This document shows positions 4,401 through 25,841 of a stretch of DNA of 64,000 nucleotides, piece after piece. The notes beneath the pieces were generated by a model. That model saw nothing but the letters and a program-made list of their open reading frames with translations. It searched no databases and was not told where the DNA came from. Within the stretch, counting starts at the first letter, position 1. Each line of letters begins with the position of its first letter. The stretch comes from Dehalogenimonas alkenigignens (GTDB taxonomy: Bacteria; Chloroflexota; Dehalococcoidia; Dehalococcoidales; Dehalococcoidaceae). The stretch covers positions 1 through 64,000 of the forward strand of contig NZ_KQ758903.1 of NCBI RefSeq assembly GCF_001466665.1, in the 5' to 3' direction. A program made the translations under genes and the position numbers.

Positions 4401-5174
4401 CTACCCTATTAGTTGGTATACTTGGAAGTGCTTAGATTCCAATTCCATCAGGCTCATATCCCAATCAAAGATGAGCAAACTATTTTGCATTCCTGAATGA
4501 CTCAGAAGTCGTCGCCCATCTTTGGAAACGACACTTTCTCCACCGATCCAATCAACGTTCTTTTCAGTGCCGGTGCGATTGCATACCCAGAGCGGGATAC
4601 TGGCCTCTAATGTTCGCCTCTCCCAGCGGTCACCCGGACCATATTTCGCACCCCATGCGGCGGGACATATTAACAACTGGGCGCCTTTGTCCTTATGTTG
4701 CATCGCTAACTGACCTTCATAAATATCCGCGCAAATTAGAATACCAACATTCACTCCGTCTATTAAGACCGGTTGAATCGTCTCTCCTGGAGTTGACCAG
4801 CCTTCTTCTAAACCTGGATGAACCATAATTTTCCGGTGCTTTCCGGCAATCTTTCCCATTGAATCGATGACATAAGCCGTGTTATGTAAGTTCCCAGTTG
4901 CAGCGTCGCGCTCCGGTTGGCAAATGATAAGGTTCAACTTCCTTGATGATGCTAGGGTTTGCAGCCTTCCTAACCATTCATCCGATGCGGAAGGTATCCA
5001 GTCGGTGCCGACAACATCGGAGAAAAAGTAACCGCAAACGGCTAATTCAGGGGTAATGATCCAGGTGGCTCCCAAATCGGCCGATCTCAGTATTCCCATT
5101 TCAATTAGCTTTCGGTTATGGGTTATTTCGCCCGGTTTAGGACTTATATGCAACAAACTCACACGTGTCAACAT
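4401..5174 (-). CDS. Carbon-nitrogen hydrolase (nitrilase superfamily)
   Basis: A 257-residue amidase of the nitrilase superfamily, which hydrolyses C-N bonds of amides or nitriles in the cytoplasm. The Glu-Lys-Cys triad is visible: Glu in ITPELAVCGY, Lys in GKHRKIMVHP and Cys in ILICADIYEG. It is the last gene of the corrinoid cluster and overlaps the preceding CobO-like gene by 7 bases. That position suggests an amide substrate linked to corrinoids, such as a side chain, but this is inference only; substrate specificity cannot be read from the sequence. Confidence 0.8.
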   Translation of the reverse strand: MLTRVSLLHISPKPGEITHNRKLIEMGILRSADLGATWIITPELAVCGYFFSDVVGTDWIPSASDEWLGRLQTLASSRKLNLIICQPERDAATGNLHNTAYVIDSMGKIAGKHRKIMVHPGLEEGWSTPGETIQPVLIDGVNVGILICADIYEGQLAMQHKDKGAQLLICPAAWGAKYGPGDRWERRTLEASIPLWVCNRTGTEKNVDWIGGESVVSKDGRRLLSHSGMQNSLLIFDWDMSLMELESKHFQVYQLIG

Positions 5175-5623
5175 TTCTCACACTCGCACCCGGTAACCAG
5201 ATCGGCAACCCCAATTACCTTTTCGTTGGCGTAGTTTCCAGTCAGGATGATTTCGGTCTTGCCATGATCAACTTTCAACAATTCCAAGATTCGTTCCCCT
5301 GAAATTCTTTGCTCGCCCCTGCTTAAGACTTGGTCGAAAACCACCACATCGAAATTCTCGCCCCCAGCATTCAAGAATGTACTATCGGAGTCGAGAAGAG
5401 AGAATTTGTCGCTTGAATCTACCAAGTCAACAACGACACCAGGCAACCGATTCAGTGTTCCCGACCTGGTAATGTCTTCGGCAGAAGCGCTACCAAAAAA
5501 GACGATATGCACTTTAAGACCGTAACCTGCTGCCCTGATCGCGGTTCCGATGGCCGCCGAAGTCTCAACATGACCTTCACCGAGAAACACCTGGATCATG
5601 CCTTTCCGTTCGGTCATCGCCAC
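5168..5623 (-). CDS. CobO-like protein with degenerate P-loop and C-terminal Cys cluster
   Basis: A 151-residue relative of the CobO/BtuR corrinoid adenosyltransferase. The fold signature is clear (RAAGYGLKVHIVFFG), but the ATP-binding loop reads GEGHVETS where the family has GDGKGKTT, so the Gly and Lys that hold ATP are gone. The protein ends in GCECEKC, a Cys cluster absent from CobO. It probably does not adenosylate and could instead bind corrinoid or a metal. An intact CobO is encoded at 10475-11011. A shorter start at 5599 is possible. It overlaps the nitrilase-like gene downstream. Confidence 0.7.
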   Translation of the reverse strand: MAMTERKGMIQVFLGEGHVETSAAIGTAIRAAGYGLKVHIVFFGSASAEDITRSGTLNRLPGVVVDLVDSSDKFSLLDSDSTFLNAGGENFDVVVFDQVLSRGEQRISGERILELLKVDHGKTEIILTGNYANEKVIGVADLVTGCECEKC

Positions 5624-5639
5624 ATCTCAATCAAGGAGT

Positions 5640-6335
5640 TTATTCCCATATGCTACCCTCGTTATAGACAACCATGACCGACAGCCAGTTGAACTTCATT
5701 CCAGCCACCGTGCCAAGTGAAGTCTGAGTAACGTGCTCATCTTCCAACGTCAGGTTTTCGAATACCGTCACTCTAGAAGTCGGCTTGACTTCTTGGGCCA
5801 ACAAAAAGCGAGCCGTTAGCGACGGCATCTGACGGACGCCAGACAGGATGATCAGGTTCAAGCCATTGGACAGCGCCTGCACCATCCGTTTCCGTTTCAA
5901 TCTAAGGTCTCTGCCGCCATCCCTGGGCAACGGATGATAGGTGATAATGGCTGAATCAGCCAGGGATATTTTGGCCTTGGCCGCTGCCAACTGGACAGAA
6001 CTGATCCCGGGAACGACTTGAACGTCGAAACCGTCAAAAGTCGAAAGCAACTCGTTAAGACCAGCCGGCGCCACCAATGGATCTCCGGTTTTAAGTACTA
6101 CCACCGTCGAACCGTTTTTAGTCGCCTGAATTGCTGCCTGGTCGGGAATCTCCAAGTAATTATGGCATTCCTGGAGGAATATCCTTTGATTTCGTACCAG
6201 GCTCGCTACCGGCCTAAAATCCTGTTCCCAGCCGACGAGGATATCGGCAGAGATCACCAGTTCCCGCACTCTTCTTGAGACCCAATCGGGTGAGCCCGGT
6301 CCGACACCAACGATATATACTTTGCTTTTATCCAC
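5640..6335 (-). CDS. CbiE-like tetrapyrrole methylase
   Basis: A 231-residue protein of the SAM-dependent tetrapyrrole methylase family, closest to CbiE (cobalt-precorrin-7 C5-methyltransferase; the N-terminal half of CobL). Visible are the SAM-site loops VGVGPGSPDW near the N-terminus, LKTGDPLV in the middle and VVPGISSVQLAA. No other corrin-ring methylases occur in the window apart from a second CbiE-like gene at 15321, so it is an orphan. It may act on salvaged corrinoids or have been recruited for another role. Its end overlaps the start of the BtuF-like gene by 8 bases. Confidence 0.75.
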   Translation of the reverse strand: MDKSKVYIVGVGPGSPDWVSRRVRELVISADILVGWEQDFRPVASLVRNQRIFLQECHNYLEIPDQAAIQATKNGSTVVVLKTGDPLVAPAGLNELLSTFDGFDVQVVPGISSVQLAAAKAKISLADSAIITYHPLPRDGGRDLRLKRKRMVQALSNGLNLIILSGVRQMPSLTARFLLAQEVKPTSRVTVFENLTLEDEHVTQTSLGTVAGMKFNWLSVMVVYNEGSIWE

Positions 6336-7215
6336 TAGGGATTCCTTTAAAAGTCGCCGTCTTGTTGAATATTTCAGGATAGAATAATTCAGCCAGCTTT
6401 TCGATTCCCTCCACCATCCGGGGGCCGGGGCGACTGATCAGGTCGCTGCTCACACCATAAATACGGCCTGTCTGCCTCGCCTTGGTCCCGGCAATAGCAG
6501 GCTCTTTACGAGCAATCTCTAAAGGTTCTTGGGGATTTGCTAAGTATCCCGTCTCTGCAATGATAATATCCGGATCGCTTTTAACAACGTCAGTAAACGT
6601 CGGGTAGGGATAATAATCGCCGAAATCCCGACCGACGTTGTAGCCACCGGCAATATCGGTAAGAGTGTCTCCGATAGTTTTAGCGCCGAAGGTTTTCCAA
6701 GTGCTTGATTCATGCAGATAAAAAACCCGAGGCCGGTCCTTTGCTTTCACCCGAGCGACCTTTGAGCTCACAAAGCAGAGCCGGCTTCTAATCGATATCT
6801 CAAGTCCGGCAGCGGCTTGGTCTTTACCAACACACCAACCAATGATTCTAATAGCTTTAATCATCTCTTCAATGGTGTTTGCCTCAAGAACAATCACCGG
6901 GCAACCTATTCTTTCAAGATCAGACAGCAAACCTTTTAAATGGATAGCAGCGGCGATGATCAGATCGGGTTTGCTTTCTCGGATGAGATCAAGGTCAACC
7001 GTGCTAAAGCCGCTGACTTTAGGTTTGGACCTGGCATCCAACGGATAGTCACAATAATCGGTAACCCCGTACAGGTTATTTTCGGCCCCGAGCGCGTAGA
7101 CGATTTCGGTACTGCTGGGGGCAAGCGAGACAATCCGGGTTTTGGGGACTTCCAGCCACATCTGACGGCCGGCCTGGTCGGTGATCACAAGCTGGTTATT
7201 TAAGACTGTATTCAT
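6328..7215 (-). CDS. BtuF-like corrinoid-binding protein without signal peptide
   Basis: A 295-residue protein of the periplasmic-binding fold used by BtuF and FhuD-type receptors: RIVSLAPSSTEIVYALGA, KPDLIIA and SRPGPRMVEGIEKLA are typical. Receptors of this kind normally carry a Sec or lipoprotein signal. Here the protein starts with a short polar stretch and goes straight into the fold, with no lipobox, so it should stay in the cytoplasm. No btuC or btuD neighbours are present. It overlaps CbiZ by one base. A corrinoid carrier or chaperone in the cytosol is my inference; a wrong start is unlikely because the cbiZ stop lies directly upstream. Confidence 0.75.
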   Translation of the reverse strand: MNTVLNNQLVITDQAGRQMWLEVPKTRIVSLAPSSTEIVYALGAENNLYGVTDYCDYPLDARSKPKVSGFSTVDLDLIRESKPDLIIAAAIHLKGLLSDLERIGCPVIVLEANTIEEMIKAIRIIGWCVGKDQAAAGLEISIRSRLCFVSSKVARVKAKDRPRVFYLHESSTWKTFGAKTIGDTLTDIAGGYNVGRDFGDYYPYPTFTDVVKSDPDIIIAETGYLANPQEPLEIARKEPAIAGTKARQTGRIYGVSSDLISRPGPRMVEGIEKLAELFYPEIFNKTATFKGIPSG

Positions 7216-8030
7216 TATTTTTTCAGACCGCCTTCCAGATGATAGTTGGGGTCCTTGGCCAGTTGTTTTCCAAAGGCTATTTTACAGGCCTTGGTAACCG
7301 TGCTGGCCATAAGTTCCCCTAGTTTGGTGTGGCCGCCGGCGTACCGGCATTTGAATTCGCTGCCCGAAACAACAATTATCTGGTCGGTGCCGGTGCCGGT
7401 TGCCTGGAGGGTGGGATTGAATGAACTATGGATACCCAAATCCTGCAAGGCGACGTCTTTGGCTTCGGTGGCCGTAATAAAACTCGATGCCATAGTTCCC
7501 AGGGATAGTCTGGCGTTGGTGGTTAGAACGATATTGATCGTACCGCACGGCTGATATTTGCCTTCTACCTCTGTACCGCAGGCTTTGTCTACTCCAGCCC
7601 GCATAGCATTGTGGCGGAAACCCGCGGTGACCCAGGAATGTACCCAAAAGTTCTGAAAACTCTCGGAGGCCTGTGACATGTCTTTCATGTCCACCCCGGT
7701 GGCCAGCGTCGTGACTTCCCTGGTGGGCACACCGTAACGATCAGCGATCACTTTTACCAGATCCTTCAGGTAGTTATCGTAGCTCAGGTCATGAAAATGT
7801 AGGTGATCGCACAGATCTTTGGGCATATAGGAGTTGCAGACAAGTTTAATGCGCCGATATCCCCCATCACCCGAGAGGGACGCGTGCGGTTCATCAAACC
7901 GTATCACCAGAGTGTTGGCATCGGTATTCCAGGCTCGGTGGGTTACAATTTCGGTTGAGCCACCAGGAAAAACACCTGCCTCGGCGGTACCAGTAACCAT
8001 CACTGAAGGTCCGAAATTGGGGTTTACCAT
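7215..8030 (-). CDS. cbiZ: Adenosylcobinamide amidohydrolase CbiZ (copy 1)
   Basis: CbiZ cleaves the amide bond to the nucleotide loop of adenosylcobinamide or pseudo-cobamides, giving adenosylcobyric acid, the entry point for remodelling the lower ligand. Diagnostic stretches are TAGFRHNAMRAG, TATEAKDVALQDLG and ATGTGTDQIIVVSG. At 271 residues it is slightly longer than usual. It overlaps NifS by 7 bases and the BtuF-like gene by 1, so it is co-translated with them. A second copy, clearly diverged, lies at 13521-14309. Dehalococcoidia are known to remodel imported corrinoids this way. Confidence 0.9.
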   Translation of the reverse strand: MVNPNFGPSVMVTGTAEAGVFPGGSTEIVTHRAWNTDANTLVIRFDEPHASLSGDGGYRRIKLVCNSYMPKDLCDHLHFHDLSYDNYLKDLVKVIADRYGVPTREVTTLATGVDMKDMSQASESFQNFWVHSWVTAGFRHNAMRAGVDKACGTEVEGKYQPCGTINIVLTTNARLSLGTMASSFITATEAKDVALQDLGIHSSFNPTLQATGTGTDQIIVVSGSEFKCRYAGGHTKLGELMASTVTKACKIAFGKQLAKDPNYHLEGGLKK

Positions 8031-9181
8031 CGCGAATAAACCTCTGATTCAGCCCGCACTTTTTGGACAATTTCGGAAAGCGTCTGCACTGCCCTTTTGA
8101 TATCCTCGTCCGTAGTGTGTTTGCCCAGCGATAATCTTATGGAACAGTTGGCCAAATCACGGTCGAGCCCGGTTGCCAGGAGCACATATGGGGCTTCGTG
8201 TGTCGCCGAGCTGCAGGCCGATCCTGTGGACACGCAGATGCCTCGCTTGGCTAGTTCCCCCGAGAGATACTCTCCCTCCATGCCCTCAATGCTGACATTC
8301 ACATTTCCGGGCAGACGCTTATCGGGATGGCCGTTAAGGCGCGAGCCGGGAACAGAAGTCATGATCCCGGCTATAAGATCCCGGCTCATCTTTCTAAGGC
8401 AAAATTCCTCTCCGGCTGATTCATACCTGGCGATCTCGGCAGCGGCGCCCATGCCTACGATCGCCGGGACATTTTCGGTACCCGATCGGAGCCCTTCCTC
8501 CTGACCACCTCCGAAAATAATCGGCGACAGCGCCACGCTTCCCCGGGCATACAGGGCGCCAACGCCCTTCGGGCCGTAAAACTTATGGGCGGACAGCGAC
8601 ATCAGGTCGATATCACTTCTCTCGACATCGATAGGAAGATGCCCTACTGCCTGGACGGCATCGGTGTGAAACAGGACCCCAAGTTTCTGACAGATGGCGC
8701 CAATCTCAGCTACCGGCTCGATCGTGCCGATGACGTTGTTGGCAGTCATGATACTGACAAGGATGGTGTCTGGCCTGATCGCATCCCTGACGTTTTCGGG
8801 AGCCACTATTCCGAAAGGATCGACCTCAAGATAGGTCACTTCAAATCCGTTTCGCTCAAGATTCCGGCAGGCTTCTAGCACAGCATGGTGCTCGATTTGT
8901 GAAGTGATGACATGCCGCCCCTTAGATACGTTGGCTCCCGCCACACCCAAAATGGCCAGATTATCTGCCTCAGTGCCGCCGCTGGTGAAAATAACTTCGT
9001 TTGGTTGGCAGTTAATGAGCTGGGCAACTTGTTCCCGCGCCCTCTCGACCGCTTCCCTGGCCCGGCGGCCCAAGGGATGAATCGAAGACGGATTGCCGTA
9101 ATCATAGTAAAAATACGGTAGCATCGCTGCCACCGCCTCAGGATCGACAGCCGTTCCGGCGGCATGATCAAGATAGATCAC
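8024..9181 (-). CDS. Cysteine desulfurase (NifS/IscS type)
   Basis: A PLP enzyme of 385 residues that takes sulfur from cysteine for Fe-S clusters and other sulfur transfer. The PLP lysine is in SLSAHKFYGPKG, the substrate-binding part in GGTEADNLAI, and the catalytic Cys in STGSACSSATHE, on the long loop typical of the NifS/IscS class. It starts with GTG at 9181. There are no iscU or regulator neighbours; it sits inside the corrinoid cluster, where the radical-SAM proteins and the dehalogenases all need Fe-S clusters. Confidence 0.9.
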   Translation of the reverse strand: MIYLDHAAGTAVDPEAVAAMLPYFYYDYGNPSSIHPLGRRAREAVERAREQVAQLINCQPNEVIFTSGGTEADNLAILGVAGANVSKGRHVITSQIEHHAVLEACRNLERNGFEVTYLEVDPFGIVAPENVRDAIRPDTILVSIMTANNVIGTIEPVAEIGAICQKLGVLFHTDAVQAVGHLPIDVERSDIDLMSLSAHKFYGPKGVGALYARGSVALSPIIFGGGQEEGLRSGTENVPAIVGMGAAAEIARYESAGEEFCLRKMSRDLIAGIMTSVPGSRLNGHPDKRLPGNVNVSIEGMEGEYLSGELAKRGICVSTGSACSSATHEAPYVLLATGLDRDLANCSIRLSLGKHTTDEDIKRAVQTLSEIVQKVRAESEVYSRW

Positions 9182-9229
9182 GTCGTCTAAGTGCCTATCG
9201 GGATTATTTAATCGGATATCGTTTTCCTT

Positions 9230-9481
9230 TTAACAGGCACGAGGCCGGGCCTGAGATTTTTTAACGTTATAGGCAACGACCGCCGCGTCGATGTCCTTAC
9301 CAAGGCCTTCCACTTCTTTCAACTGATCCTGGGACAGTTTGGCGTATTCTTCATTCATCGCCGAGAAAGCGATGAGCTGTACCCCAAGTTTGCGTTCGAG
9401 CGCCCGGACTTTATCCAGCGCAGCATCATCAAGGGGTTTGACCGGGATCTTTACGAAGCAATGGGCTAATTCTTTGGCCAT
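9230..9481 (-). CDS. Small conserved-looking protein of the corrinoid cluster
   Basis: About 83 residues. I place the start at the ATG at 9481, preceded by a GGAGG site, rather than the TTG two codons earlier. The protein is predicted mostly helical, with a hydrophilic central part, and ends in ARPRAC with a terminal Cys. No family is recognised. It lies between cbiB and nifS with short gaps on both sides, so it belongs to the operon. Confidence 0.6.
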   Translation of the reverse strand: MAKELAHCFVKIPVKPLDDAALDKVRALERKLGVQLIAFSAMNEEYAKLSQDQLKEVEGLGKDIDAAVVAYNVKKSQARPRAC

Positions 9482-9498
9482 TTCCAACCTCCAAGCGC

Positions 9499-10449
9499 TT
9501 AAAATACGTAAAATGCCAGCCAGAGGACACTTGCACTGAGTGCGATATCGGTGGCGGCCATGAACCAGAAGAGATGCACCGCATGACCGATTACACCTGG
9601 GGCCAGGGGCAGATCGGCATCTCCCAGGGCGTAGTGGGCGTTTCGATCGAGTCTGACCTCAAGGGCACCGGCAGCAGCCGCCATCGGCCAACCCCCGTTC
9701 GGGCTTTCGGTTTTAGCGTGGTCCCGCATCGTAATGTGCCAGGCCTTTTTCGAGTTCAGACCGGTAAGCCAGGCTGCGGTGATAAAGAAGAATGCAGTCA
9801 GCCTGGCCGGGATAAAGTTAACGACGTCATCGAAAATGGCGGCGAATTTTCCAAGGTATTCGTACTGCCCCCGGTGGCCCAGCATGCCGTCAAGGGTATT
9901 GGCTACCCGGTAGGCCACGGCGCCGGGCACTCCAAGGATGAGAAAATAGAATAAGGGAGCAACCAAAAAATCCGATGCATTCTCGGCCAGGGATCTGACG
10001 GTCGAAGACACGATTGGTGGGACTGTTTCATCAAGCGATCCTCGTTCAACCGTGGTAAGCAGATAGCGGATCTTCTTGTCGGCGTTCTCAATCTGTAAGT
10101 CGCTACCCTTGAGATATTTTTCCACTAACAGCGACATCTGGCCATTGAATTTAAGGCAGAATGTCGGCTTCAGGATGATTACCCCGATTAGGAGATAAAG
10201 GACGATATTTAAACCTTTCAACAAGCTCAAGAGCCAATAGGTGATGCCACCAAAAAAGGCGATCAGGATAAGGGAAGCAAACATGCCAAAAACGAATTGC
10301 AGGGTGTGGTTCTTGATCCCAAGCCCGATCTTTTCTACGACAGAGATCGCTCGCCCGATCCAGACGGTGAGGTGGACGGCTGCCGGGGGTTCGGCAATCA
10401 CCAAGTCTAACAGCACCGCACCTAAGAGAATCCAGATGTCGTAACTCAC
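9499..10449 (-). CDS. cbiB: Adenosylcobinamide-phosphate synthase CbiB/CobD
   Basis: An integral membrane enzyme of 316 residues that joins aminopropanol phosphate, or a similar linker, to adenosylcobyric acid. The start region DLVIAEPPAAVHLTVWIGR matches the DxxxxxPxxxHPVxxxG signature of the family with changes. Further family stretches are VERGSLDE, SLAENASDFLVAPLFYF and AYRVANTLDGMLGHR, plus SPNGGWPMAAAAGAL near the end. Several membrane segments are visible. It restores the linker on the product of CbiZ, so both halves of a remodelling route are in the same operon. Confidence 0.88.
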   Translation of the reverse strand: MSYDIWILLGAVLLDLVIAEPPAAVHLTVWIGRAISVVEKIGLGIKNHTLQFVFGMFASLILIAFFGGITYWLLSLLKGLNIVLYLLIGVIILKPTFCLKFNGQMSLLVEKYLKGSDLQIENADKKIRYLLTTVERGSLDETVPPIVSSTVRSLAENASDFLVAPLFYFLILGVPGAVAYRVANTLDGMLGHRGQYEYLGKFAAIFDDVVNFIPARLTAFFFITAAWLTGLNSKKAWHITMRDHAKTESPNGGWPMAAAAGALEVRLDRNAHYALGDADLPLAPGVIGHAVHLFWFMAATDIALSASVLWLAFYVF

Positions 10450-10474
10450 GGATATATCCCTGCTTCAGCTGCCT

Positions 10475-11011
10475 TCAGAAATCTATGCCTTTCCTGGCAA
10501 AAATACCTTTGTCGTATGGATGCTTGATTTTGTGAAAAACACACACCTGGTCAGCGCGTTCTAGAATCCTTTTATCGGCAGTTTTACCGGTAAGAATCAT
10601 TGACATCCCGTTTGGCTTGGAAACCATCAGTTTCACAATGTCGTCGGCTAAAATCAGACCGTAATACTGGGCATTGATAATCTCGTCGAGAATCACCAGG
10701 TCAAAACGGCCTGACTTTAAAATAGCTCCGGAGTATTCTAAAGCCTGCCGGGCTAGCACCTTGTCCTGGGTCTCGGCATCAGCACCGCTTAAAAAGCCGC
10801 TGCGGCCGAAAACGGCGTATTCGACCCCCAGGTTTTCCAGGGATCTGTATTCCGCACCTTTCCGTTTGCCTTTCATGAAGAAAACGACGCCTACTCTTTG
10901 CCCCAGAGCCTTGGCTCTAAGCACCTCGCCCATCGCTGCCGAGGTCTTGCCGCGCCCGTCCCCATGAAACACGTGTATTTTGCCAACCGTAGTCATTGGA
11001 TTCGGCATCAA
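10475..11011 (-). CDS. cobO: Corrinoid adenosyltransferase CobO/BtuR
   Basis: A 178-residue CobO family protein that transfers the adenosyl group from ATP to cob(I)alamin or cobinamide. The P-loop GDGRGKTSAAMGEVLRA is intact, and LVILDEI forms the Walker B region. It is missing in CobT/CobS company but lies next to class II ribonucleotide reductase, which needs adenosylcobalamin, and its start overlaps the end of that gene by 4 bases. The second CobO-like gene at 5168 has lost its P-loop, so this is the working copy. Confidence 0.9.
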   Translation of the reverse strand: MMPNPMTTVGKIHVFHGDGRGKTSAAMGEVLRAKALGQRVGVVFFMKGKRKGAEYRSLENLGVEYAVFGRSGFLSGADAETQDKVLARQALEYSGAILKSGRFDLVILDEIINAQYYGLILADDIVKLMVSKPNGMSMILTGKTADKRILERADQVCVFHKIKHPYDKGIFARKGIDF

Positions 11012-12771
11012 ACCGCCTCAACCATACCATTGCTTTGGAAATATCTCTGGGCTACCTCGACGCACTCCGGCCCGGTGCACAATACCTGAGCATCGCGGCT
11101 GGTGTCGCGGTAGGCAGTGACTCCTTTTAAACCTAAATCATAGGCTTTCAAAAACATGGACTTGATGTCTTCCACGGTAGCACTTTTTGGAAAATTAACC
11201 GTCTGAGAAATGGCATTGTCGATGTGTCTCTGGAAAACTGCCTGCATCCGAATGCACCACTCTGGATCAATGTCCCGGGCAGTAACGAAAAGCTGGCGGA
11301 AAGGCTCGGGGATTCTTTGGCAGTTGACTGGGCTCACCCCGGACAGGAGTTCCTCAACGAGTTTGGAGTTGAAGAACCCAAATTTTTTGGCGATTTGTTC
11401 AAAGGCTTGGTTAATATCCAATAGACGCTCACCGTCGAGAATATTGCGTACCATGACCATGGCGTATATTGGATGAATGCCGCAAGAAGTATTGGCCAGG
11501 ATGCTGGTCGTACCGGTATTGGTGAAGGTCAGGCAGGAGGCATGGCGCATCGGGTGACCATCCTGACGATCAAAAACGCTCCCAGTGAATGCCGGAAAAG
11601 TCCCCCGTTCCCTAGCCAGGTTCTCGCTGGCTTCGTAGGTTTTTGTGCGGACAAACCACATTAGTTCATCGGCTATTTCCAGCGCTTGGTCAGAATCGTA
11701 ACGGATGCCAAGTTTGATCAGGAGTTCTGCAAAACCCATGAGCCCTAAGCCGATTTTCCGAGTGGCTCTCGATGCCTTTTCGACGTCGCCAAGCGGATAA
11801 AGATTAACATCGAGAACGTTGTCCAAAAACCTCACCGCTTTCGGAATAACATCTCCCAGCCGCAGGTAATCGATCGAAGGTTTCTCACTATCCTCTGAAA
11901 CCATGAGCGACAGGTTTATCGTTCCCAGGGTAGCGGATTCGAAAGGCACCAGGAGCTGGCCACCGCAGGGATCCGTCGTCTCGAAATTACCCAACTGGGG
12001 GGTGGGGTTGCTGTCATTTATCCGATCGATGAACATGATCCCCGGGTCTCCGGTCTCCCAGGCGCCTTCTGCAATGCTGTCCATAATTACCCTGGCAGGG
12101 ATTTCTCCAGTTACCACACCGTTACGGGGATTAATCAGTTGACAATATTTTCCATGCCTGACCCGATCAACAAAGTCATCAGTGATCTCGATATTCGTGG
12201 CAAAATTGGCTGAGGCCGACCCATCTCGCTTAGCCTGAATGAACTTGAGGATATCTGGGTGGTTGACCGGTAGGCTTGCGGAGTTACAGCCACAGCGCAC
12301 CCCCGCCTGTCGTATGTAATTGGTCGCTTCGGAAAACACCTTGATCAGTTTGACCGGCCCTCCGGCAGAGCTCAGATTTCCGGACACCAGGTCACCTTCC
12401 GGCCTGATGTGCCCGAAGGAAAACCCGGTACCACCGCCGAATTTATGGATGGTCATCGCTTTAACCAAGGCACAACTTATACCTTCAATCGAATCCTCAA
12501 CAGGCAGCACGAAACACGACGATAACAGCCCCCTTTCGCGACCGGCGTTTAAAAGGGTCGGCGAATTGGGCAGGAATTCAAGTCCGGTCATCATCCGATA
12601 GAACTCATCCGCCCATGCCGTTTCGTCTGTCTTATAACGCCTTTCTACCGAAGCGATGACGTTGGCTACCCGGCGGAACATGTCCTCGGGCGTCTCGATA
12701 ATGTTTCCACCCTCATCCTTTTTAAGATAGCGCTTGTTTAAAATAATGCGGGCGTTTTGGCTAAGTTCCAT
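11008..12771 (-). CDS. nrdJ: Adenosylcobalamin-dependent (class II) ribonucleoside-diphosphate reductase
   Basis: A 587-residue class II reductase that makes deoxynucleotides with a radical generated from adenosylcobalamin. Family motifs include LPNSPTLLNAGRERG, SSCFVLPVEDSIEGI, GGGTGFSFG and TNTGTTSILANTSCG, and the active-site region NPCGEQ-like appears as TDPCGGQLL. The C-terminal tail has only LCTGPEC rather than the usual longer Cys-rich module, so re-reduction may differ. It is co-translated with cobO. Placing the largest consumer of AdoCbl within the salvage operon links DNA synthesis to corrinoid supply. Confidence 0.88.
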   Translation of the reverse strand: MELSQNARIILNKRYLKKDEGGNIIETPEDMFRRVANVIASVERRYKTDETAWADEFYRMMTGLEFLPNSPTLLNAGRERGLLSSCFVLPVEDSIEGISCALVKAMTIHKFGGGTGFSFGHIRPEGDLVSGNLSSAGGPVKLIKVFSEATNYIRQAGVRCGCNSASLPVNHPDILKFIQAKRDGSASANFATNIEITDDFVDRVRHGKYCQLINPRNGVVTGEIPARVIMDSIAEGAWETGDPGIMFIDRINDSNPTPQLGNFETTDPCGGQLLVPFESATLGTINLSLMVSEDSEKPSIDYLRLGDVIPKAVRFLDNVLDVNLYPLGDVEKASRATRKIGLGLMGFAELLIKLGIRYDSDQALEIADELMWFVRTKTYEASENLARERGTFPAFTGSVFDRQDGHPMRHASCLTFTNTGTTSILANTSCGIHPIYAMVMVRNILDGERLLDINQAFEQIAKKFGFFNSKLVEELLSGVSPVNCQRIPEPFRQLFVTARDIDPEWCIRMQAVFQRHIDNAISQTVNFPKSATVEDIKSMFLKAYDLGLKGVTAYRDTSRDAQVLCTGPECVEVAQRYFQSNGMVEAV

Positions 12772-12774
12772 CTT

Positions 12775-13515
12775 TTACGACACCACCACTGGTTTCCATT
12801 GGCCGCTTTTCTCTTCTGAGGTGACCGTTGTCACGTTGTTGAGATAAAGTTTTGCCATTCTGGCGGCGTTTTCAACCTGCTCGCGGGTCGCCGAATGCCA
12901 CGGCGCCTTGGGTACGGCGAAATAAGATGTCACGCGGAAGAGAATGTTCTTATCGATCCCGGCAATAAATTTTGCCAGTTGCTTTATATCAGGCTCTTCC
13001 ACGATACCCGGAATGTACGCTATCTCGGCCTGTAACTTCTTACCGTTGTCAAAAATGTGTTTGAAATTGGTCATGATCGTTTCGTTCGTTTGCCCGGTAT
13101 ATCTTTTGTGGGCTGCTTTGAAGTAAGTTTTGAAGCTGAATACTACCTCATCGATATCTTTCAGGTCGCCCACCTTAAGCCCGTTGGTTAGAAGAATCTG
13201 TTGACTATGGTCTCTCTCATGGAGGGATGCCGCCAAGGCCGGCAGTTCGGGATCCATGATAGCCTCTTGCCCCATAAAAATAGTGTATTTCGGATCGAGG
13301 CCTTGGGTTTTATGCAGGACCTCTGCCAGAGTAAAAAAGTGGGTTGGCGGCTCGGCTGGGGCGGCATGAGACAACTGTTCAACCGCATTCTCATTCAGTC
13401 CCAAGTCATGAATCTCAAAATTCTTGTAGCAGCCAAGGCAATGGAGATTGCAGCCCCAAAAATGGAGGTCTAAAATCCGAAAAGATGGTTCATAGGTGAT
13501 GTGGTAGACATTCAT
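12775..13515 (-). CDS. Short radical-SAM protein, paralogue 1
   Basis: A 246-residue radical-SAM protein. The 4Fe-4S motif is GCNLHCLGC (CX3CX2C) at residues about 20-30. The usual GGEP SAM-binding motif is replaced by FMGQEAIMDP. The start VYHITYEP is shared by all three paralogues in this cluster (12775, 14306, 16039). There is no extra Cys-rich auxiliary-cluster domain. It resembles activase-type radical-SAM proteins in size. Gaps of 3 and 5 bases to neighbours place it between nrdJ and the second cbiZ. The reaction is unknown; context suggests corrinoid modification or activation of a partner enzyme. Confidence 0.8.
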   Translation of the reverse strand: MNVYHITYEPSFRILDLHFWGCNLHCLGCYKNFEIHDLGLNENAVEQLSHAAPAEPPTHFFTLAEVLHKTQGLDPKYTIFMGQEAIMDPELPALAASLHERDHSQQILLTNGLKVGDLKDIDEVVFSFKTYFKAAHKRYTGQTNETIMTNFKHIFDNGKKLQAEIAYIPGIVEEPDIKQLAKFIAGIDKNILFRVTSYFAVPKAPWHSATREQVENAARMAKLYLNNVTTVTSEEKSGQWKPVVVS

Positions 13516-13520
13516 AACGC

Positions 13521-14309
13521 TTAACAGGTTTCTTTGGAATTTCGGATGCTTGTCGCTATTGCCTCCTGGGTCGAACGGATTACAGAAAGCGCCATCATCT
13601 CACCCATAATCGTATGGCCCTGGACGTACTGGCACTTTTCTCCAAAACCTGAAGCCACAATCACCTGGTCGGTGCCAGTCCCGGTAGCCAGCCACTCCGG
13701 GTGCTTGGAACTCCTGATGTCGAGTTCCTGGAGAGCCACATTTTTGGCTTCGGTAACGGTGATGACCGACGACACCAAAGCCCCAGGGTCTAACGTCCCA
13801 TTGGTCACCATGACGTGGCAGATCGTGCCAAAGGGAATGAACTGTCCTTTCCTCTCCATGCCCACTGATTTATCGCGGCCAATCCGGACAGCGTTGTGGC
13901 GTACACCCGCGGTGGTGAAACAGGCGACCCACAACTCCTCGTAGCGCTCTACCGCCCACGCTAAATTCCCCATCGGCACACCGGTGGAGAGGAAGGCAGT
14001 GTCCCTGATGTCCACCCTGTGTTCTGTGAGGATGTCTTTCAGCAGTTGCTCATAGTAGTAGAAATGATCTTTACTCTGATCATGCATGTATAGTCCGAGT
14101 TCGTCGGGGATGTGGCAGTTAAAAAGTATTTTCGCTTTGACTAACCCATGACGACTGCTGATGACATTTCTAGCCTCGTCAAATTTTATGGCAAAGACAT
14201 TGTTGGGTACGCCAAGCGCCGTATAATAAATGGTCTCGGCAGAAAGACCTTCGAGTTCGGTTACAGGGCGTCTTTCGATCGCTGAAACTGGCATAAATAC
14301 CCCTTTCAA
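13521..14309 (-). CDS. cbiZ: Adenosylcobinamide amidohydrolase CbiZ (copy 2)
   Basis: The second CbiZ homologue, 262 residues, with TAGVRHNAVRIG, TVTEAKNVALQELD and ATGTGTDQVIVASG intact. It is clearly diverged from copy 1 at 7215, so this is not a recent duplication; the two may prefer different corrinoids. It is flanked on both sides by paralogous radical-SAM genes, overlapping the upstream one by 4 bases, which implies that CbiZ and these radical-SAM proteins work in the same process. Confidence 0.88.
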   Translation of the reverse strand: MKGVFMPVSAIERRPVTELEGLSAETIYYTALGVPNNVFAIKFDEARNVISSRHGLVKAKILFNCHIPDELGLYMHDQSKDHFYYYEQLLKDILTEHRVDIRDTAFLSTGVPMGNLAWAVERYEELWVACFTTAGVRHNAVRIGRDKSVGMERKGQFIPFGTICHVMVTNGTLDPGALVSSVITVTEAKNVALQELDIRSSKHPEWLATGTGTDQVIVASGFGEKCQYVQGHTIMGEMMALSVIRSTQEAIATSIRNSKETC

Positions 14310-15118
14310 TACAGCCGGATTACTTCATATAGCAGGTCGGCTTTGGTGAGTTCTCTTTTGGTCTGCTGAGTACTGTAGACATTGGCAAGGTGTTGTTTGG
14401 CGATGCCGACCGCTTCTTTCATCTCTGCCGGCTCAGGTGCCCGCCAGGGATTATCCCCGGATTCAAAATAAGCATCTATGCGGTATGGAATGCTTTTATC
14501 AACCGAACTAATGAACCTGGCAATCTTCTCAGTCTCATCAAACCCAATATACCCGGGGATAAAGACGCTCTCGGCTTTCAAAAGGACACTAGAATCATGG
14601 TACCGCTTGAAATTTTCAAGGACGAACGAGTTCGAAAGACCGGTATATTCTTGGTAGATTCGAGGCGTCACCGCCTTGAGACTGACTATCACCTCGTCAA
14701 TATTGGCCGTGTCCGCCTTGGCCACTCCGTTAGTATGAAGCACTACCCTTGCGTTCCGGCCCTTTAAATAGCGGCAGATCTCCGGTAGCGTCGGATCAAG
14801 CGATGCTTCCTGGCCTTCAAAGGCTACCTCGGCAAGTTCCACTTTTTCCAGGATGGTTATGAGTTCATCAAATGAAAGCGATCCCGCCGGAGTCTGCGGC
14901 GGCCTGAGCCGGGGATCCCGGAAGACCACGTCTAGGTTTTCCTCCAGTGCCATGCAGTTGATTTCTTTATGGCATAGACACCCTTTACATTTTAAGTTGC
15001 AGCCCCAGTGAAACAGATAAGCCTTTTTAATCGCCGGCGCGTAGGCGATGTGATAGACGTGCGTCAGGCTTCTTTTCAGGGCGCTTAAACTGGGTGTAAA
15101 TTCGGTCAGGGTAGCCAT
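14306..15118 (-). CDS. Short radical-SAM protein, paralogue 2
   Basis: A 270-residue radical-SAM protein related to those at 12775 and 16039. The cluster motif is GCNLKCKGCLCHKE, with an additional Cys just after the CX3CX2C triad as in the 16039 paralogue. The SAM-site motif is AFEGQEASLDP. An N-terminal extension of about 18 residues precedes the shared VYHIAYAP start. It is the first gene after the structured RNA-like element at 15187-15312 and so heads the downstream part of the cluster. Function unknown. Confidence 0.8.
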   Translation of the reverse strand: MATLTEFTPSLSALKRSLTHVYHIAYAPAIKKAYLFHWGCNLKCKGCLCHKEINCMALEENLDVVFRDPRLRPPQTPAGSLSFDELITILEKVELAEVAFEGQEASLDPTLPEICRYLKGRNARVVLHTNGVAKADTANIDEVIVSLKAVTPRIYQEYTGLSNSFVLENFKRYHDSSVLLKAESVFIPGYIGFDETEKIARFISSVDKSIPYRIDAYFESGDNPWRAPEPAEMKEAVGIAKQHLANVYSTQQTKRELTKADLLYEVIRLY

Positions 15119-15186
15119 GCGTTGTTCCTTATCGATAAAGATCTATGTTCTAAATCAGGTTTGTCCTAAGACTCATATTTAAAAAA

Positions 15187-15312
15187 TTCGGCAAGCCCGG
15201 CGGTGAACCCCGATTACACCCGAGGAGCCCACGGGAAGGGTTTCACAGCTTATTAAGCCAGACTGAGTCGCGCAGTCAGGCACCCCGGTTTCCCCCACCA
15301 CAAAGCTTGCCG
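15187..15312 (-). promoter_or_regulatory. Structured RNA-like element with 3' U-tract (possible riboswitch)
   Basis: Read on the minus strand, the element is closed by the 8-bp helix CGGCAAGC (15312-15305) with GCUUGCCG (15196-15189), followed by AA and six U. Inside are three helices: GCC-U-GACUG with CAGUC-U-GGC, a small GCUU/AAGC hairpin, and GUGAACCC-type pairing enclosing a CCCG/CGGG hairpin. It lies 69 bases before the radical-SAM gene at 14306 and directly after the stop of the CbiE-like gene. The shape fits a riboswitch or attenuator for the downstream genes. The core cobalamin-riboswitch motifs (GCAACUGU type, B12 box) are not found, so the ligand is open. Confidence 0.5.
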
Positions 15313-15320
15313 CGGAATCA

Positions 15321-16061
15321 TCAATTCTTTTCCTTCCTTACTACCATGCAGGATATCCAATGGAAATTGCCAGCGGCCACTTCTGATAGAGTAAGAGTGC
15401 GGACTTGTTCATCCGCACATCCCATGCATTCACCCACCACTGTTTCAGTGTTTTTCGAGATCCGATTCTTCAGAAGGAAAGATGCCGTCTGAGACAAGGT
15501 CTGTTCAATGTCACTTAAAACAATCAAATTGTAACCGTTGCGAAAAGACCGGATCATCCGCTGCCTTTTCCGCATCAGGTCATTTTGGTCTATATTGCCT
15601 TGGGGATCGGGAGCGTAAACCACCAGCAGCGAATCCTCGAGTGATATGCAAGCTGCCGCAGCGAGGAGTTGCAGGCTCGAGATGGCAGGAACTAGCTCGA
15701 TTTTGTAGCAAGGAAACAGTTTTTCGAAATCATGACTGGCAGGGTAGGTAGTGGGATCATCCTGGATTAATACCGCCACATCTTGATTACTTATTAGCCC
15801 CAGTTCCCAACTTTGGTATTGAACATTCTGATAAGTCGACGCATCCTGCTGCAAAACGACTTTTTGCTTCAAATTAAGTCCGAGTTCTCTAAGCGACCGC
15901 GGCCATCCGATGACGATTTGGCTTTCATCAAGCGATCTCTCTGATATCGGAGTAATGAACTCACCATTGCCCGGGCCTGTGCCGATTATCGACACCCCAA
16001 CTTTGTTGGGTTGAGACAGGTCCCAACAACCCGCCGCCTTAGACAACCCGTTCCACTTCAT
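15321..16061 (-). CDS. CbiE-like tetrapyrrole methylase, degenerate paralogue
   Basis: A 246-residue relative of the CbiE-like protein at 5640. IIGTGPGNGEFITP and VPAISSLQLLAAAA mark the fold, but the central GDP loop has become LIQDDPTTYP, so SAM binding or turnover may be altered. The first 19 residues precede the usual family start, and the gene overlaps the upstream radical-SAM gene by 23 bases. Two diverged CbiE-like genes without the rest of the corrin-ring pathway point to a special role rather than de novo synthesis. Confidence 0.68.
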   Translation of the reverse strand: MKWNGLSKAAGCWDLSQPNKVGVSIIGTGPGNGEFITPISERSLDESQIVIGWPRSLRELGLNLKQKVVLQQDASTYQNVQYQSWELGLISNQDVAVLIQDDPTTYPASHDFEKLFPCYKIELVPAISSLQLLAAAACISLEDSLLVVYAPDPQGNIDQNDLMRKRQRMIRSFRNGYNLIVLSDIEQTLSQTASFLLKNRISKNTETVVGECMGCADEQVRTLTLSEVAAGNFHWISCMVVRKEKN

Positions 16062-16779
16062 GCAGGATTTCCTTTTTCACACCCTGGCAGCCCGATACGT
16101 TGGTCAGGTAACGGCTTACTCGCTCAACAGCCTCTGCAACTTCTTCCGGTTTTGTTTTCCGCCACTTGTTTTCCCCTGCCGGAAAATAAGGCAAGACGTA
16201 GTAGGGGATATTCCGGTCGATTCCGGCGATAAATTGGGCGATACGCTCAATTTCGGCGATCTCCACTAGTCCAGGAATCAAAATCGAAGCCGCGGTTAGT
16301 CTAACCCCGGAACGGGCGTACCTAATGAAGTTATTCTTTACCGGCTCAGCTGATCTGCCGGTATACCACTGGTGAAGTTCCTCCGTGATGGCTTTGATAC
16401 CCACTTCAACCGAATCAGTGTCGTCCATTGATGGCATCTTGAAGCCGTTTGTGTAAAGGACGTTTTCTGAGTTGAACTGCTCATGGAAAGCTTTGGTGAT
16501 CGCCGCGTAATTCGGATCGAGAGTTGCTTCTTCGCCAGTGAGATATATTCGTCTGGGATTGAGTTCATCAAGTCGATCAAGCACTTGATCCAGGTCTAAC
16601 AGGCGCTCCGGCGCATTCGGAGCATTTGCAAAGTATTTTTGGTCATCATCTTTAAGGAGGTGATCGTAGATACCTTCCTTGCACAAACATCCCAAACAGG
16701 CCATGTTGCAGCCCCAGAAACGTAGTGAAACACTGTCGGTGGCTGGAGTATGAGTGATATGGTAGATATTGGTTTTCAA
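16039..16779 (-). CDS. Short radical-SAM protein, paralogue 3
   Basis: A 246-residue radical-SAM protein with cluster motif GCNMACLGCLCKEG and SAM-site motif YLTGEEATLDP. The start IYHITHTP is the paralogue signature. As in copy 2, an extra Cys follows the triad. It directly follows the DUF71 gene by 2 bases and overlaps the CbiE-like gene, so it is translated with both. Three paralogues in 4 kb, each next to a corrinoid gene, suggest related but distinct substrates. Confidence 0.8.
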   Translation of the reverse strand: MKTNIYHITHTPATDSVSLRFWGCNMACLGCLCKEGIYDHLLKDDDQKYFANAPNAPERLLDLDQVLDRLDELNPRRIYLTGEEATLDPNYAAITKAFHEQFNSENVLYTNGFKMPSMDDTDSVEVGIKAITEELHQWYTGRSAEPVKNNFIRYARSGVRLTAASILIPGLVEIAEIERIAQFIAGIDRNIPYYVLPYFPAGENKWRKTKPEEVAEAVERVSRYLTNVSGCQGVKKEILHEVERVV

Positions 16780-16781
16780 AT

Positions 16782-17540
16782 TTATACCATTGAGTTGGAT
16801 AATAACGCGGTTTCTTCGCCATATTCGGGTTTATCGATAAGTGAACAATTGTCAATTTCGAGATACCAGAAGGGCGATACAGTTGGTTTGCCATCGTATA
16901 GGCCGCATTCTTTGAAGACAACCTTCTGTTGTCCTAAAGCAAGCCGCTTTTTAAAGATCGGCCCGTCAACAGTTAGTGTATGGTACAAACCTACCTTACC
17001 ATCGGTTGAGGTGACATATAGTGATTTAAGTTCATCCAGCAAATCTCGGTCGAGAGTTCTCCCGAGCCAACTTCTACCTAATTTCGAATTATCCGCGGCG
17101 ATGATCAGACTCACAAATCCGGAATCTATGAGATCGTTTATGATTGATTCACGATCTTCATCCCAGAGAGGTAAGATCGGTTCCATGTCTGCCGCTCGAC
17201 AGACTCTTTCAATCCACATCCGGTGTTCCAGGGCATCGGGATTACCAAGGCTGACATCGCCAAAAACGGCACCTGTGATACCGTCTTTTCTGAAATTCTG
17301 AAGCATTTTGATGTAATTGGTGGTATAACCGGCTCCGTCAGTCCAATTGGCAGTCAGGGGGATATCAATGGCTTCTGCCTGCTGCTCAACTACTTTAAGG
17401 GTAAGGTGATGAGGATAAAGCCGCCCCACTTCACGCGTGAACATGCTGGCAACGCATCTAACGTTATGGCCAATATTGAGTGCTCTGAACAGAGATAGCG
17501 AACAGTCTTTTCCACCGCTCCAAGATACGAACACATCCAT
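16782..17540 (-). CDS. DUF71/COG2102 ATP-pyrophosphatase (predicted B12-salvage subgroup)
   Basis: A 252-residue ATP-PPase of the diphthine-ammonia ligase fold. The PP-loop is VSWSGGKDCSLSLFRA at the N-terminus; YTTNYIKML and GAVFGDVSLGNPDALEHR are family features. I start at the ATG at 17540, with AAGGAG 7 bases upstream; an earlier in-frame start lacks a site. Diphthamide does not exist in bacteria, and comparative genomics has predicted a bacterial DUF71 subgroup in B12 salvage. Its place as first gene of this cluster agrees with that. It probably forms an amide on a corrinoid; this is inference. Confidence 0.8.
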   Translation of the reverse strand: MDVFVSWSGGKDCSLSLFRALNIGHNVRCVASMFTREVGRLYPHHLTLKVVEQQAEAIDIPLTANWTDGAGYTTNYIKMLQNFRKDGITGAVFGDVSLGNPDALEHRMWIERVCRAADMEPILPLWDEDRESIINDLIDSGFVSLIIAADNSKLGRSWLGRTLDRDLLDELKSLYVTSTDGKVGLYHTLTVDGPIFKKRLALGQQKVVFKECGLYDGKPTVSPFWYLEIDNCSLIDKPEYGEETALLSNSMV

Positions 17541-17577
17541 CGATTTCTCCTTGTCTACCATAACCAAGTCGATCCAG

Positions 17578-24257: not shown

Positions 24258-25841
24258 GTGAGCAAGTTCCATAGCACCGTGACCCGTCGTGATTTCATGA
24301 AGGCGATTGGCTTGGCTGGAGCCGGGGTTGGAGCCGCCGCACTGGCAAACCCAGTATTTCATGACTTGGATGAGCTGGGTGGAGCAACTGGAATTGGTAA
24401 AGCTAAACGCGCCTGGTGGGTAAAAGAGCGCGAGGCATTGGATTCAACTACTCCGGTGGATTGGGATATCTATAAAAGATACGATGGTGCGCTCAATACT
24501 GTACCGTTCCTTGGGAACATGGCTCCGGACGAAGCCAAGAAACTTACTGATGAAACGGGGATGATCGGTTTACTCGAAACTCTTCAACACGATTTAGGGA
24601 ACACTGCAGCGATGATCAAGTTTCCCAAGTGGCAACCAGGTTCACAACACATTGAAGCTATGTTAAATAAGAAACCTGGTTACAGCGTCAGGGAATTTGC
24701 GTTTGGGCATGGTATGGTGACCTGGCCTTCAAAATTGTTGGAACCTCATGCAATGTTCATGGGGGATAGCCGGATTATGAGCCGTATTTGGAGCCCACAA
24801 GAATTAGGTGTTCCTCCTTGGAGTGGTACCCCTGAAGAAAACAGTGCTCTTCTCCGAACGGTTATCAGGACATTGGGAGGATCTACCATCGGTTTTGTAC
24901 CTCTAAATGAGAAAACAAGGAGGTTTATCAACACTAGACCAATTGGAGATCCCGGAATGCGAATTGAATTTGAAGATGTGGATGCGCCGTACCTTAAGTA
25001 TTCTGGTAAAGACAATTCAGAATCAAAATTTGTTATACCAAACAAATTCACGACTGCAGTGACTTTTAGTTGGCAAATGTCCAAAGCCATTATGAATGTT
25101 CCTGGTATGCATACAGCACAGCAATCTGGAGGTACTTGTATTCAAATAGATGTCCCTCGACATACTTTACTGCAATTTTTTAAGGCCTTGGGTTGGCACG
25201 CAGCTTCGACCGATGCAATAGGTAATCATCTGTTTCCTCCTTTTGGGGTTATGGGGGGGTTAGGCGAGATGGGGCGCATGACCATGGTTATAACTCCGGA
25301 AAGAGGACCCCAAATACGAGCCACAAGTTGTGTGTTCACTGATCTCCCACTCGCTTATGATAATCCGATTGAATTTGGGGCTCGTCGCTTTTGCTTTACC
25401 TGTAAAAAATGCGCTGATGTCTGTCCAATGGGAGCAATAAGTACAGAAAAAGAGCCATCATGGGACATCACCAAGAAATATGATAATTATGTTCAACCCG
25501 AGACATTCAACAATGCTGGATTAAATGCCTGGTATCTGGATCACAATAAATGCTATCAAGGCTGGAGAAAATCCCTTTCGGGGTATTGCGGACTTTGCCA
25601 GCCCAACTGCACTTTTTCGAAATTTGATCAAGCAGGAATTCACCAGGTCATCATGGGGACTGCATCAACTACTCCAGTTTTCAACGGGTTCTTTAGGAAA
25701 ATGGACGATTTCTTCGGTTATGGGTCCAAAGCCAAAGGTTGGGGAGAAACAACGCAAGAAGAAATTGATGCGTTAATGTATTCTGGAGAAAACCTCAGTG
25801 AATGGGGATATGACGGAACCTACGGGCGCCATAGGTTATAA
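24258..25841 (+). CDS. rdhA: Reductive dehalogenase catalytic subunit RdhA
   Basis: A 527-residue corrinoid/Fe-S enzyme that removes halogen from organic compounds as the terminal step of organohalide respiration. The Tat signal is TRRDFMK (Arg 10 and 11) with a short hydrophobic stretch. Two cluster motifs follow: CFTCKKCADVCP at about 379-390 and CYQGW with GYCGLCQPNC at about 432-451. The start is GTG at 24258 after AAAGGAG. Size and order match functional RdhA. The usual rdhB downstream is missing: only a ribosome-binding site, ATG and terminator follow. The halogenated substrate cannot be predicted. Confidence 0.95.
   Translation: MSKFHSTVTRRDFMKAIGLAGAGVGAAALANPVFHDLDELGGATGIGKAKRAWWVKEREALDSTTPVDWDIYKRYDGALNTVPFLGNMAPDEAKKLTDETGMIGLLETLQHDLGNTAAMIKFPKWQPGSQHIEAMLNKKPGYSVREFAFGHGMVTWPSKLLEPHAMFMGDSRIMSRIWSPQELGVPPWSGTPEENSALLRTVIRTLGGSTIGFVPLNEKTRRFINTRPIGDPGMRIEFEDVDAPYLKYSGKDNSESKFVIPNKFTTAVTFSWQMSKAIMNVPGMHTAQQSGGTCIQIDVPRHTLLQFFKALGWHAASTDAIGNHLFPPFGVMGGLGEMGRMTMVITPERGPQIRATSCVFTDLPLAYDNPIEFGARRFCFTCKKCADVCPMGAISTEKEPSWDITKKYDNYVQPETFNNAGLNAWYLDHNKCYQGWRKSLSGYCGLCQPNCTFSKFDQAGIHQVIMGTASTTPVFNGFFRKMDDFFGYGSKAKGWGETTQEEIDALMYSGENLSEWGYDGTYGRHRL

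Follow-up and report, generated by a model that had tools for sequence, protein, structure and literature searches.

The first part of contig NZ_KQ758903.1 of Dehalogenimonas alkenigignens carries a 16-gene operon in which three short radical S-adenosylmethionine (SAM) genes stand among homologs of corrinoid salvage genes. It lies in a 64,000-nucleotide stretch analyzed at full length (the window), and it represents a form of cobamide salvage to which new parts have been added. We consider it quite probable that the operon is a corrinoid system. The more specific proposal, that it is a cytosolic corrinoid-tailoring operon for remodeling or repair in a corrin auxotroph, seems to us evenly balanced, and the chances that the radical-SAM proteins act on the corrinoid itself are about even. 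These readings draw on computed gene content, conservation and subfamily structure, on residues lost from a ribonucleotide reductase (RNR)-like protein, on a BtuF homolog that lacks its export signal and is fused in one genome to a CbiE-like methylase, and on auxotrophy judged by the marker CbiD.

We took a census of the neighbors of 89 distinct close members of the radical-SAM family in bacteria and archaea. At least one corrinoid gene stands in the operon of 77 of these members, compared with 82 (20%) of 417 control genes from the same loci lying more than 6 kb from the radical-SAM gene. The Fisher p value of 3e-33 overstates this link, since related genomes are not independent; the same link is seen in unrelated archaea. 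The carriers are mostly corrin auxotrophs as well. CbiD, our marker for anaerobic corrin building, has no match in the whole D. alkenigignens genome (G000), and 39 of 45 carriers lack it. Random samples of two phyla show CbiD in 2 of 15 carriers versus 261 of 479 other genomes (p = 0.002), where carriers are genomes with the close radical-SAM family and a distant archaeal group, mostly with CbiD, is counted among the others. A sequence-only reading of the window had proposed a corrinoid salvage and repair system and had seen no ring-building pathway; by the CbiD marker the pathway is indeed missing from the whole genome, and the corrinoid link gains strong support from the neighbors and the auxotrophy, although the reading as a whole is supported in part.

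Gene content and conservation of the operon

The operon runs on the minus strand from 17567 to 4401 with all reading frames open. From 5' to 3' its genes are as follows.

16782..17567, minus strand: Dph6-like N-type ATP pyrophosphatase (amide-ligase type), first operon gene (PF01902, E 9.6e-39)
16039..16779, minus strand: rSAM1, radical-SAM protein of the Dph6/CbiE-linked subfamily (PF04055; AlphaFold predicted local distance difference test [pLDDT] 92; subfamily support 100/100)
15321..16061, minus strand: CbiE-like methylase a, diverged (PF00590, E 1.7e-15)
14306..15118, minus strand: rSAM2, CbiB-linked subfamily (PF04055; tree support 100/100)
13521..14309, minus strand: CbiZ a (PF01955, E 7.2e-41)
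12775..13515, minus strand: rSAM3, subfamily adjoining short NrdJ (PF04055; tree support 100/100)
11008..12771, minus strand: short NrdJ-like protein, adenosylcobalamin (AdoCbl) type, 587 residues (PF02867, E 5.8e-106)
10475..11011, minus strand: CobO/BtuR adenosyltransferase (CobO1), intact P-loop GDGRGKTS (PF02572, E 5.7e-48)
9499..10449, minus strand: CbiB (TIGR00380, 219 bits, above the cut-off of 165.9)
9230..9487, minus strand: 85-residue orphan (no match in Pfam or NCBIfam)
8024..9181, minus strand: NifS-like cysteine desulfurase (PF00266, E 2.6e-87)
7215..8030, minus strand: CbiZ b (PF01955, E 1.9e-47)
6328..7215, minus strand: BtuF-like protein without export signal (PF01497, E 3e-23)
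5640..6335, minus strand: CbiE-like methylase b, overlapping btuF by 8 bases (PF00590, E 1.9e-33)
5168..5623, minus strand: CobO-like protein (CobO2), degenerate P-loop GEGHVETS (PF02572, E 1.9e-18)
4401..5174, minus strand: carbon-nitrogen hydrolase of the nitrilase superfamily (PF00795, E 8.4e-23)

The sequence-only reading had described three radical-SAM genes alternating with two CbiZ and two CbiE-like genes at spacings of a few bases. All three radical-SAM frames (12775, 14306 and 16039) are intact and above the Pfam Radical_SAM cut-off, and both CbiZ and both TP_methylase/CbiE-like genes are real, but only one of each lies between radical-SAM genes; the second CbiZ and the second CbiE sit 4.7 to 7 kb downstream of them. 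Most genes are indeed tightly packed, with gaps or overlaps of 1 to 48 bases, except for a single 202-base gap before rSAM2. The reading had also left out much of the content, namely, the Dph6-like, short NrdJ-like, two CobO-type, CbiB, orphan, NifS, BtuF and carbon-nitrogen hydrolase genes.

Both CbiZ proteins pass the Pfam CbiZ model (140.7 and 162.2 bits for a and b; cut-off 27). CobO1 retains the GKT/S motif, which CobO2 lacks through loss of the P-loop lysine. The Dph6-like ATPase has an intact SGGKD motif and matches PDB 3rjz (E 2.4e-21); with 98.7 bits on Dph6_archaeal TIGR03679, under the cut-off of 197.3, it falls within the broader group of ATP pyrophosphatases. The orphan, which adjoins NifS and has a conserved C-terminal cysteine, is kept in the operons of G004, G005, G009 and G010, and the carbon-nitrogen hydrolase recurs elsewhere with rSAM2-CbiB-CobO. 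The same gene order is found in G004 and in the sister-genus, Dehalococcoides-like genomes G009 and G010, at 44 to 78% protein identity to G009, and rearranged versions occur in G005 and G007. The order conserved across Dehalococcoides-like genomes makes the operon more than a chance arrangement.

Three radical-SAM subfamilies and their partners

The three radical-SAM proteins share 32 to 38% pairwise identity. As had been read from the sequence, all have CX3CX2C, which is invariant in the family, and a GxEAxxDP motif (GEEATLDP, GQEASLDP, GQEAIMDP). The common start VYHI needs widening to [V/I]YHI near the N terminus, with IYHI in rSAM1. The Pfam cut-off, the motif and the match of the rSAM1 model to pyruvate formate-lyase (PFL) activase place them in the Radical SAM superfamily. 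This AlphaFold model shows no more than the bare fold of PFL activase, to which it aligns over 213 residues (Z 23, 2.5 A); NifB is its second structural neighbor (Z 19). None of the curated activase models was passed, the best NCBIfam match being YjjW at 43.8 bits (cut-off 250.2), and no glycyl radical enzyme appeared among the recurrent neighbor clusters of the family, a check made at the level of clusters.

The family is narrow yet spans bacteria and archaea. D. alkenigignens has 8 clear copies in 1.85 Mb, and a profile built from the three proteins finds 2 to 14 copies per genome in the genus. A wider search, made with an alignment of 26 sequences, found the family in 15 of 400 genomes of the same phylum. 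Of 28 genomes in the phylum to which the Hadesarchaea locus belongs, 6 carry it, as do 7 of 247 in a third phylum; among 247 genomes from the phylum with the Methanocellales locus there are about eight close cases and a more distant group. We found no viral relatives. The distant archaeal branch (G455-G694; E 1e-28 to 1e-46) is multicopy and resides mostly in CbiD-bearing genomes, and several of its copies still adjoin BtuF. Another distant member lies directly beside a fused NifH-NifD-like protein of 739 residues (L183:1153-3372) that resembles nitrogenase-like tetrapyrrole reductases.

Partners of the family vary in kind. NrdJ-like genes are found in 36 of the 89 operons, CbiB and reductive dehalogenase (RdhA) in 31 each, CbiZ in 26, Dph6-like genes in 24, BtuF in 23, CbiE in 22, and B12-binding radical-SAM and CobO genes in 18 each. 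The sequence-only reading had suggested a search for the pairing of radical-SAM genes with cbiZ across genomes; with 26 of 89, CbiZ is not a constant partner. The corrinoid interpretation, which was to fall if the radical-SAM genes lay mostly away from cbiZ, survives because the other partners are also corrinoid genes. Of the 12 members without a corrinoid gene, several stand at contig ends, adjoin other radical-SAM genes, or have TonB receptors and an importer ATPase as neighbors. A cytoplasmic, non-respiratory RdhA was also considered as the partner and rejected, as neighboring RdhA proteins nearly all have a twin-arginine translocation (Tat) motif.

The usual setting in archaea and other bacteria combines a BtuFCD importer with CbiE, with a Dph6-like or asparagine-synthetase-like ligase, or with both. 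Outside the taxonomic order to which D. alkenigignens belongs, we observe BtuF-CbiE-rSAM-BtuC-BtuD or BtuF-rSAM-CbiE-Dph6, with neither dehalogenase nor NrdJ. Asparagine-synthetase-like PP-loop proteins adjoin the Hadesarchaea radical-SAM genes (L043:9004-9996 and L176:9766-10752), where they perhaps replace the Dph6-like ligase.

In a maximum-likelihood tree of the 89 members, where the identical sequences of L072 stand for the window copies, rSAM1, rSAM2 and rSAM3 each belong to a different group with 100/100 support. Members of the rSAM1 group have CbiE beside them and mostly a Dph6-like ATPase too; the rSAM2 group has CbiB in the operon of 10/10 members, with CbiB/CobO and often CbiZ as partners; and the rSAM3 group is partnered by the short NrdJ-like protein. 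Sister to the rSAM3 group are copies paired with NrdJ-like genes, importers, or rdhA and a B12-binding radical-SAM gene. Neighbor labels require 50 changes on the tree, against 74.5 in shuffles, and 0 of 200 shuffles were as low. These distinct groups, each with its own partners, argue that three older units were assembled into the triplet, which did not arise by local duplication. Tandem duplication was thus rejected as its origin, and what the sequence-only reading saw as a triplet of paralogs is rather a gathering of three old subfamilies.

BtuF, the methylases and the NrdJ-like protein

The operon BtuF starts at the mature domain in 5 of 5 operons, with neither a hydrophobic N terminus nor a lipobox, whereas nearly all importer-linked BtuF proteins have a hydrophobic N terminus, mostly with a lipobox (a comparison leaving out L200 and L201, whose start lies upstream in the gene call). 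It has a Peripla_BP_2 domain and structural matches to 5ysc (E 1.9e-18) and 1n2z, and heme-binding proteins match too. No BtuC or BtuD is present in the operon; an importer operon is located elsewhere in the genome (L070). Judged from its sequence, the operon BtuF is probably a cytosolic corrinoid-binding protein. In G009, BtuF (residues 6 to 290) and CbiE (291 to 515) form one 519-residue protein, and in G010 the frame of the fusion is interrupted, the rest of CbiE lying 45 kb away. Because the two are fused in G009, we propose that the CbiE-like methylase acts in the cytoplasm on a BtuF-bound, presumably corrinoid, substrate, for which the fusion is the most direct evidence. Longer BtuF-like proteins exist as well: an archaeal open reading frame of 753 residues (L195:6488-8749) has the N terminus LWNGGKNSSLACYKKG, which resembles a PP-loop remnant, and proteins of 677 to 1173 residues occur in L189 and L191.

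In alignment, CbiE-like a has QDDPTTYPA in place of the TGDPLxxPA loop, and it scores 75.6 bits against the curated CbiE model TIGR02467, below the cut-off of 92.9. The nearest solved structures to CbiE-like b are CbiF and CbiE. CbiD is missing from most carriers; therefore, the CbiE-like genes encode stand-alone methylases, mostly in genomes that do not make the corrin ring.

We compared the short NrdJ-like protein with Thermotoga maritima NrdJ, residue by residue. Its model preserves the RNR fold in full (Z 44, 2.0 A, 38% identity to 3o0q), and the thiyl cysteine C322 and C134 are retained as C269 and C86, respectively. However, DPCGG replaces N-x-C-x-E (N320 to D267, E324 to G271), C333 has become A280, and the phosphate loop APTGT reads TNTGT. 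The protein stops soon after KGVTAYRD and has no C-terminal cysteine tail, which the long NrdJ proteins of the same genomes keep. With the asparagine, the glutamate, a redox cysteine and the redox tail lost, it is predicted not to be a working reductase, and its residues rule out ribonucleotide reduction by the known mechanism. We also rejected it as the organism's RNR: a canonical 918-residue NrdJ is encoded elsewhere in the genome, and canonical long NrdJ is also present in the relatives checked. The four operon copies group together with 100/100 support at the end of a long stem. Other short NrdJ paralogs have likewise lost the asparagine, and those beside CbiZ-CbiB-CobO in G003 and G005 have lost the first redox cysteine and mostly the second. 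Another short NrdJ-like gene of D. alkenigignens (G000:C1:666561-667970, L071) has an in-frame TAA and is probably a pseudogene; it lies beside radical-SAM, B12-binding radical-SAM, rdhA and Dph6-like genes. We predict that the operon protein uses AdoCbl, and infer its substrate likewise. When the active site of an RNR is impaired, the enzyme is known to eliminate base and phosphate from its nucleotide, and because of this we would guess, by analogy, that the operon protein cleaves the released nucleotide loop.

The operon belongs to a longer stretch shared with G004, a genome of another species. Window positions 1 to 23073 and the 15.4 kb before the contig start (G000:C1:1836132-1851576) are 99.7 to 100% identical to G004; identity is then 96% up to 35254, compared with about 75% in other regions common to both genomes. 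The two parts are separated in G004 by about 4.9 kb, which the ends of the G000 contig lack. The shared stretch holds integrase-type genes, an open reading frame resembling an IS3-type transposase, and an rdhA gene:

24258..25841, plus strand: Tat-exported reductive dehalogenase rdhA (RdhA profile match, TRRDFM motif)

Recent exchange of a mobile island is the simplest reading, with shared contamination of the assemblies a less likely explanation of the near-identity. Beside the intact rdhA and a Crp/Fnr-like regulator gene is an RdhA-like open reading frame (21883-23226, minus strand) with a short N terminus and no Tat signal. The stretch also contains what looks like a B12-binding radical-SAM gene (26123-27628, minus strand); such proteins adjoin small radical-SAM genes in L064, L066, L068, L069 and L071.

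Proposed corrinoid tailoring, its alternatives and known systems

How might such an operon work, and go beyond a mere exchange of the lower ligand? Imported corrinoid would be held in the cytoplasm by BtuF and stripped of its nucleotide loop by the two CbiZ proteins. The BtuF-linked CbiE-like methylase and the three radical-SAM proteins could then alter the corrin skeleton or side chains, with carboxylate or amide groups adjusted by the Dph6-like ligase and the carbon-nitrogen hydrolase. CbiB and CobO would rebuild adenosylcobinamide phosphate, which the usual nucleotide-loop enzymes would complete. For the short NrdJ-like protein we suggest new thiyl-radical chemistry, with the released loop as a possible substrate. 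We infer both the radical-SAM substrate and the order of these steps. The general principle would be that corrin auxotrophs take up a corrinoid and then, with cytosolic BtuF as its carrier, edit the macrocycle or side chains by means of an amide ligase, a CbiE methylase that stands alone and a radical-SAM family dedicated to the task, while an RNR-fold AdoCbl-type enzyme of the operon performs a non-reductive radical reaction; in this form the idea is tentative and perhaps somewhat doubtful.

Several observations weigh against corrinoid tailoring. The radical-SAM fold is nearest to PFL activase, which acts on a protein, and the 2 to 14 copies per genus genome beside different enzymes would fit enzyme-specific maturases too. 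No cobalamin riboswitch was found at the gathering threshold in the window or seven related loci, nor in a looser search at E 5 over 3.5 to 21 kb. Some dehalogenases of such bacteria reportedly work with ordinary cobalamin in other hosts; a modified corrinoid is therefore not obligatory for dehalogenation.

The radical-SAM proteins might instead be activases or maturases, each copy placing a radical or other modification on its own neighboring corrinoid enzyme (NrdJ-like, RdhA or B12-binding radical-SAM). The PFL-activase match, the presence of these enzymes in 36, 31 and 18 of the 89 operons, respectively, and the copy numbers of up to 14 all speak for this. We nevertheless think it unlikely: archaeal and many bacterial members stand beside only BtuFCD or TonB importers, CbiE and amide ligases, the partner enzymes have a cofactor but no fold in common, and we noticed no glycyl-radical motif at the C terminus of the NrdJ-like protein, where the sequence (KGVTAYRD) resembles that of a normal NrdJ. 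It is highly improbable, in our view, that they are SAM-dependent corrinoid adenosyltransferases or dealkylases, whose 5'-deoxyadenosyl radical would join Co(II) or clear alkyl groups from inactivated cobalt. A minimal one-cluster fold, AdoCbl-type NrdJ-like proteins and RdhA among the neighbors, and the lost P-loop lysine of one CobO would suit such a role, as would the fact that the Co(I) of RdhA can be alkylated by organohalides; yet the same operon has an intact CobO, and the family also adjoins importers with no NrdJ-like or RdhA gene nearby.

That the module serves another imported tetrapyrrole or metal-organic compound and no corrinoid is very improbable. FecCD/BtuF-type importers also carry heme and siderophores, heme-binding proteins are among the BtuF matches, and the NifH-NifD-like neighbor in L183 is of a kind that reduces tetrapyrroles. 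However, CbiZ, CbiB and CobO, whose known substrates are corrinoids, are in the operon here and in relatives, and B12-binding BtuF structures are among the best matches. We give equally little credence to an ordinary lower-ligand remodeling operon with radical-SAM passengers that have unrelated jobs. CbiZ, CbiB, CobO and BtuF alone are enough for known salvage, a capacity already described for the genus (PMC13390414), but order is conserved over 44 to 78% identity, the three subfamilies keep their partners, and the family is present in archaeal BtuF operons.

Comparative genomics of Dehalogenimonas has reported salvage genes and an "RNR" expansion together with rdhA (PMC13390414), and CbiET, BtuC and one radical-SAM gene have been reported for Dehalococcoides mccartyi strain MB (PMC4635342). 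Our literature search, which did not cover subscription papers, found no description of a radical-SAM family with cbiZ, corrinoid or dehalogenases, nor of the altered NrdJ, in agreement with the view that the triplet is undescribed. The operon copy indicates that not every gene listed in the "ribonucleotide reductase" expansion of these genomes (PMC13390414) encodes a reductase. Dechlorinators for groundwater cleanup depend on scavenged B12, and the usable forms limit them. If corrinoid tailoring is correct, part of that limit would find its explanation in a mobile operon by which the pool of usable corrinoids is widened or repaired, and corrin-ring chemistry would follow uptake, outside current models.

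Cobamide remodeling (CbiZ, CbiB, CobA/CobO and BtuFCD, in Dehalococcoides and Dehalogenimonas) is similar in having CbiZ, CbiB and CobO homologs, here in one operon of a corrin auxotroph with an importer operon elsewhere. The present operon differs in adding three radical-SAM proteins, two stand-alone CbiE-like methylases, a Dph6-like ligase, a carbon-nitrogen hydrolase and a non-RNR NrdJ, and its BtuF has no export signal and no BtuC or BtuD alongside. Glycyl-radical-enzyme activases (PFL activase, YjjW and NrdG) resemble the radical-SAM proteins in fold, size, CX3CX2C and a single cluster (Z 23 to PFL activase), but not in the GxEAxxDP motif, the absence of a recurrent adjoining glycyl radical enzyme, or model score (44 bits versus a cut-off of 250). 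Class II NrdJ of T. maritima shares its whole fold and thiyl cysteine with the short protein, which lacks the catalytic asparagine and glutamate, one redox cysteine and the C-terminal redox tail. CbiE, the cobalt-precorrin-7 C5-methyltransferase, is alike in family and, for CbiE-like b, in SAM-binding motifs, whereas the operon genes occur without CbiD and are fused to BtuF in G009. Finally, the diphthamide pathway brings together the same three enzyme classes (radical-SAM-type Dph2, the TP_methylase Dph5 and Dph6); this is an analogy only, as the operon methylase is CbiE-like, its radical-SAM proteins are PFL-activase-like and its setting is corrinoid uptake.

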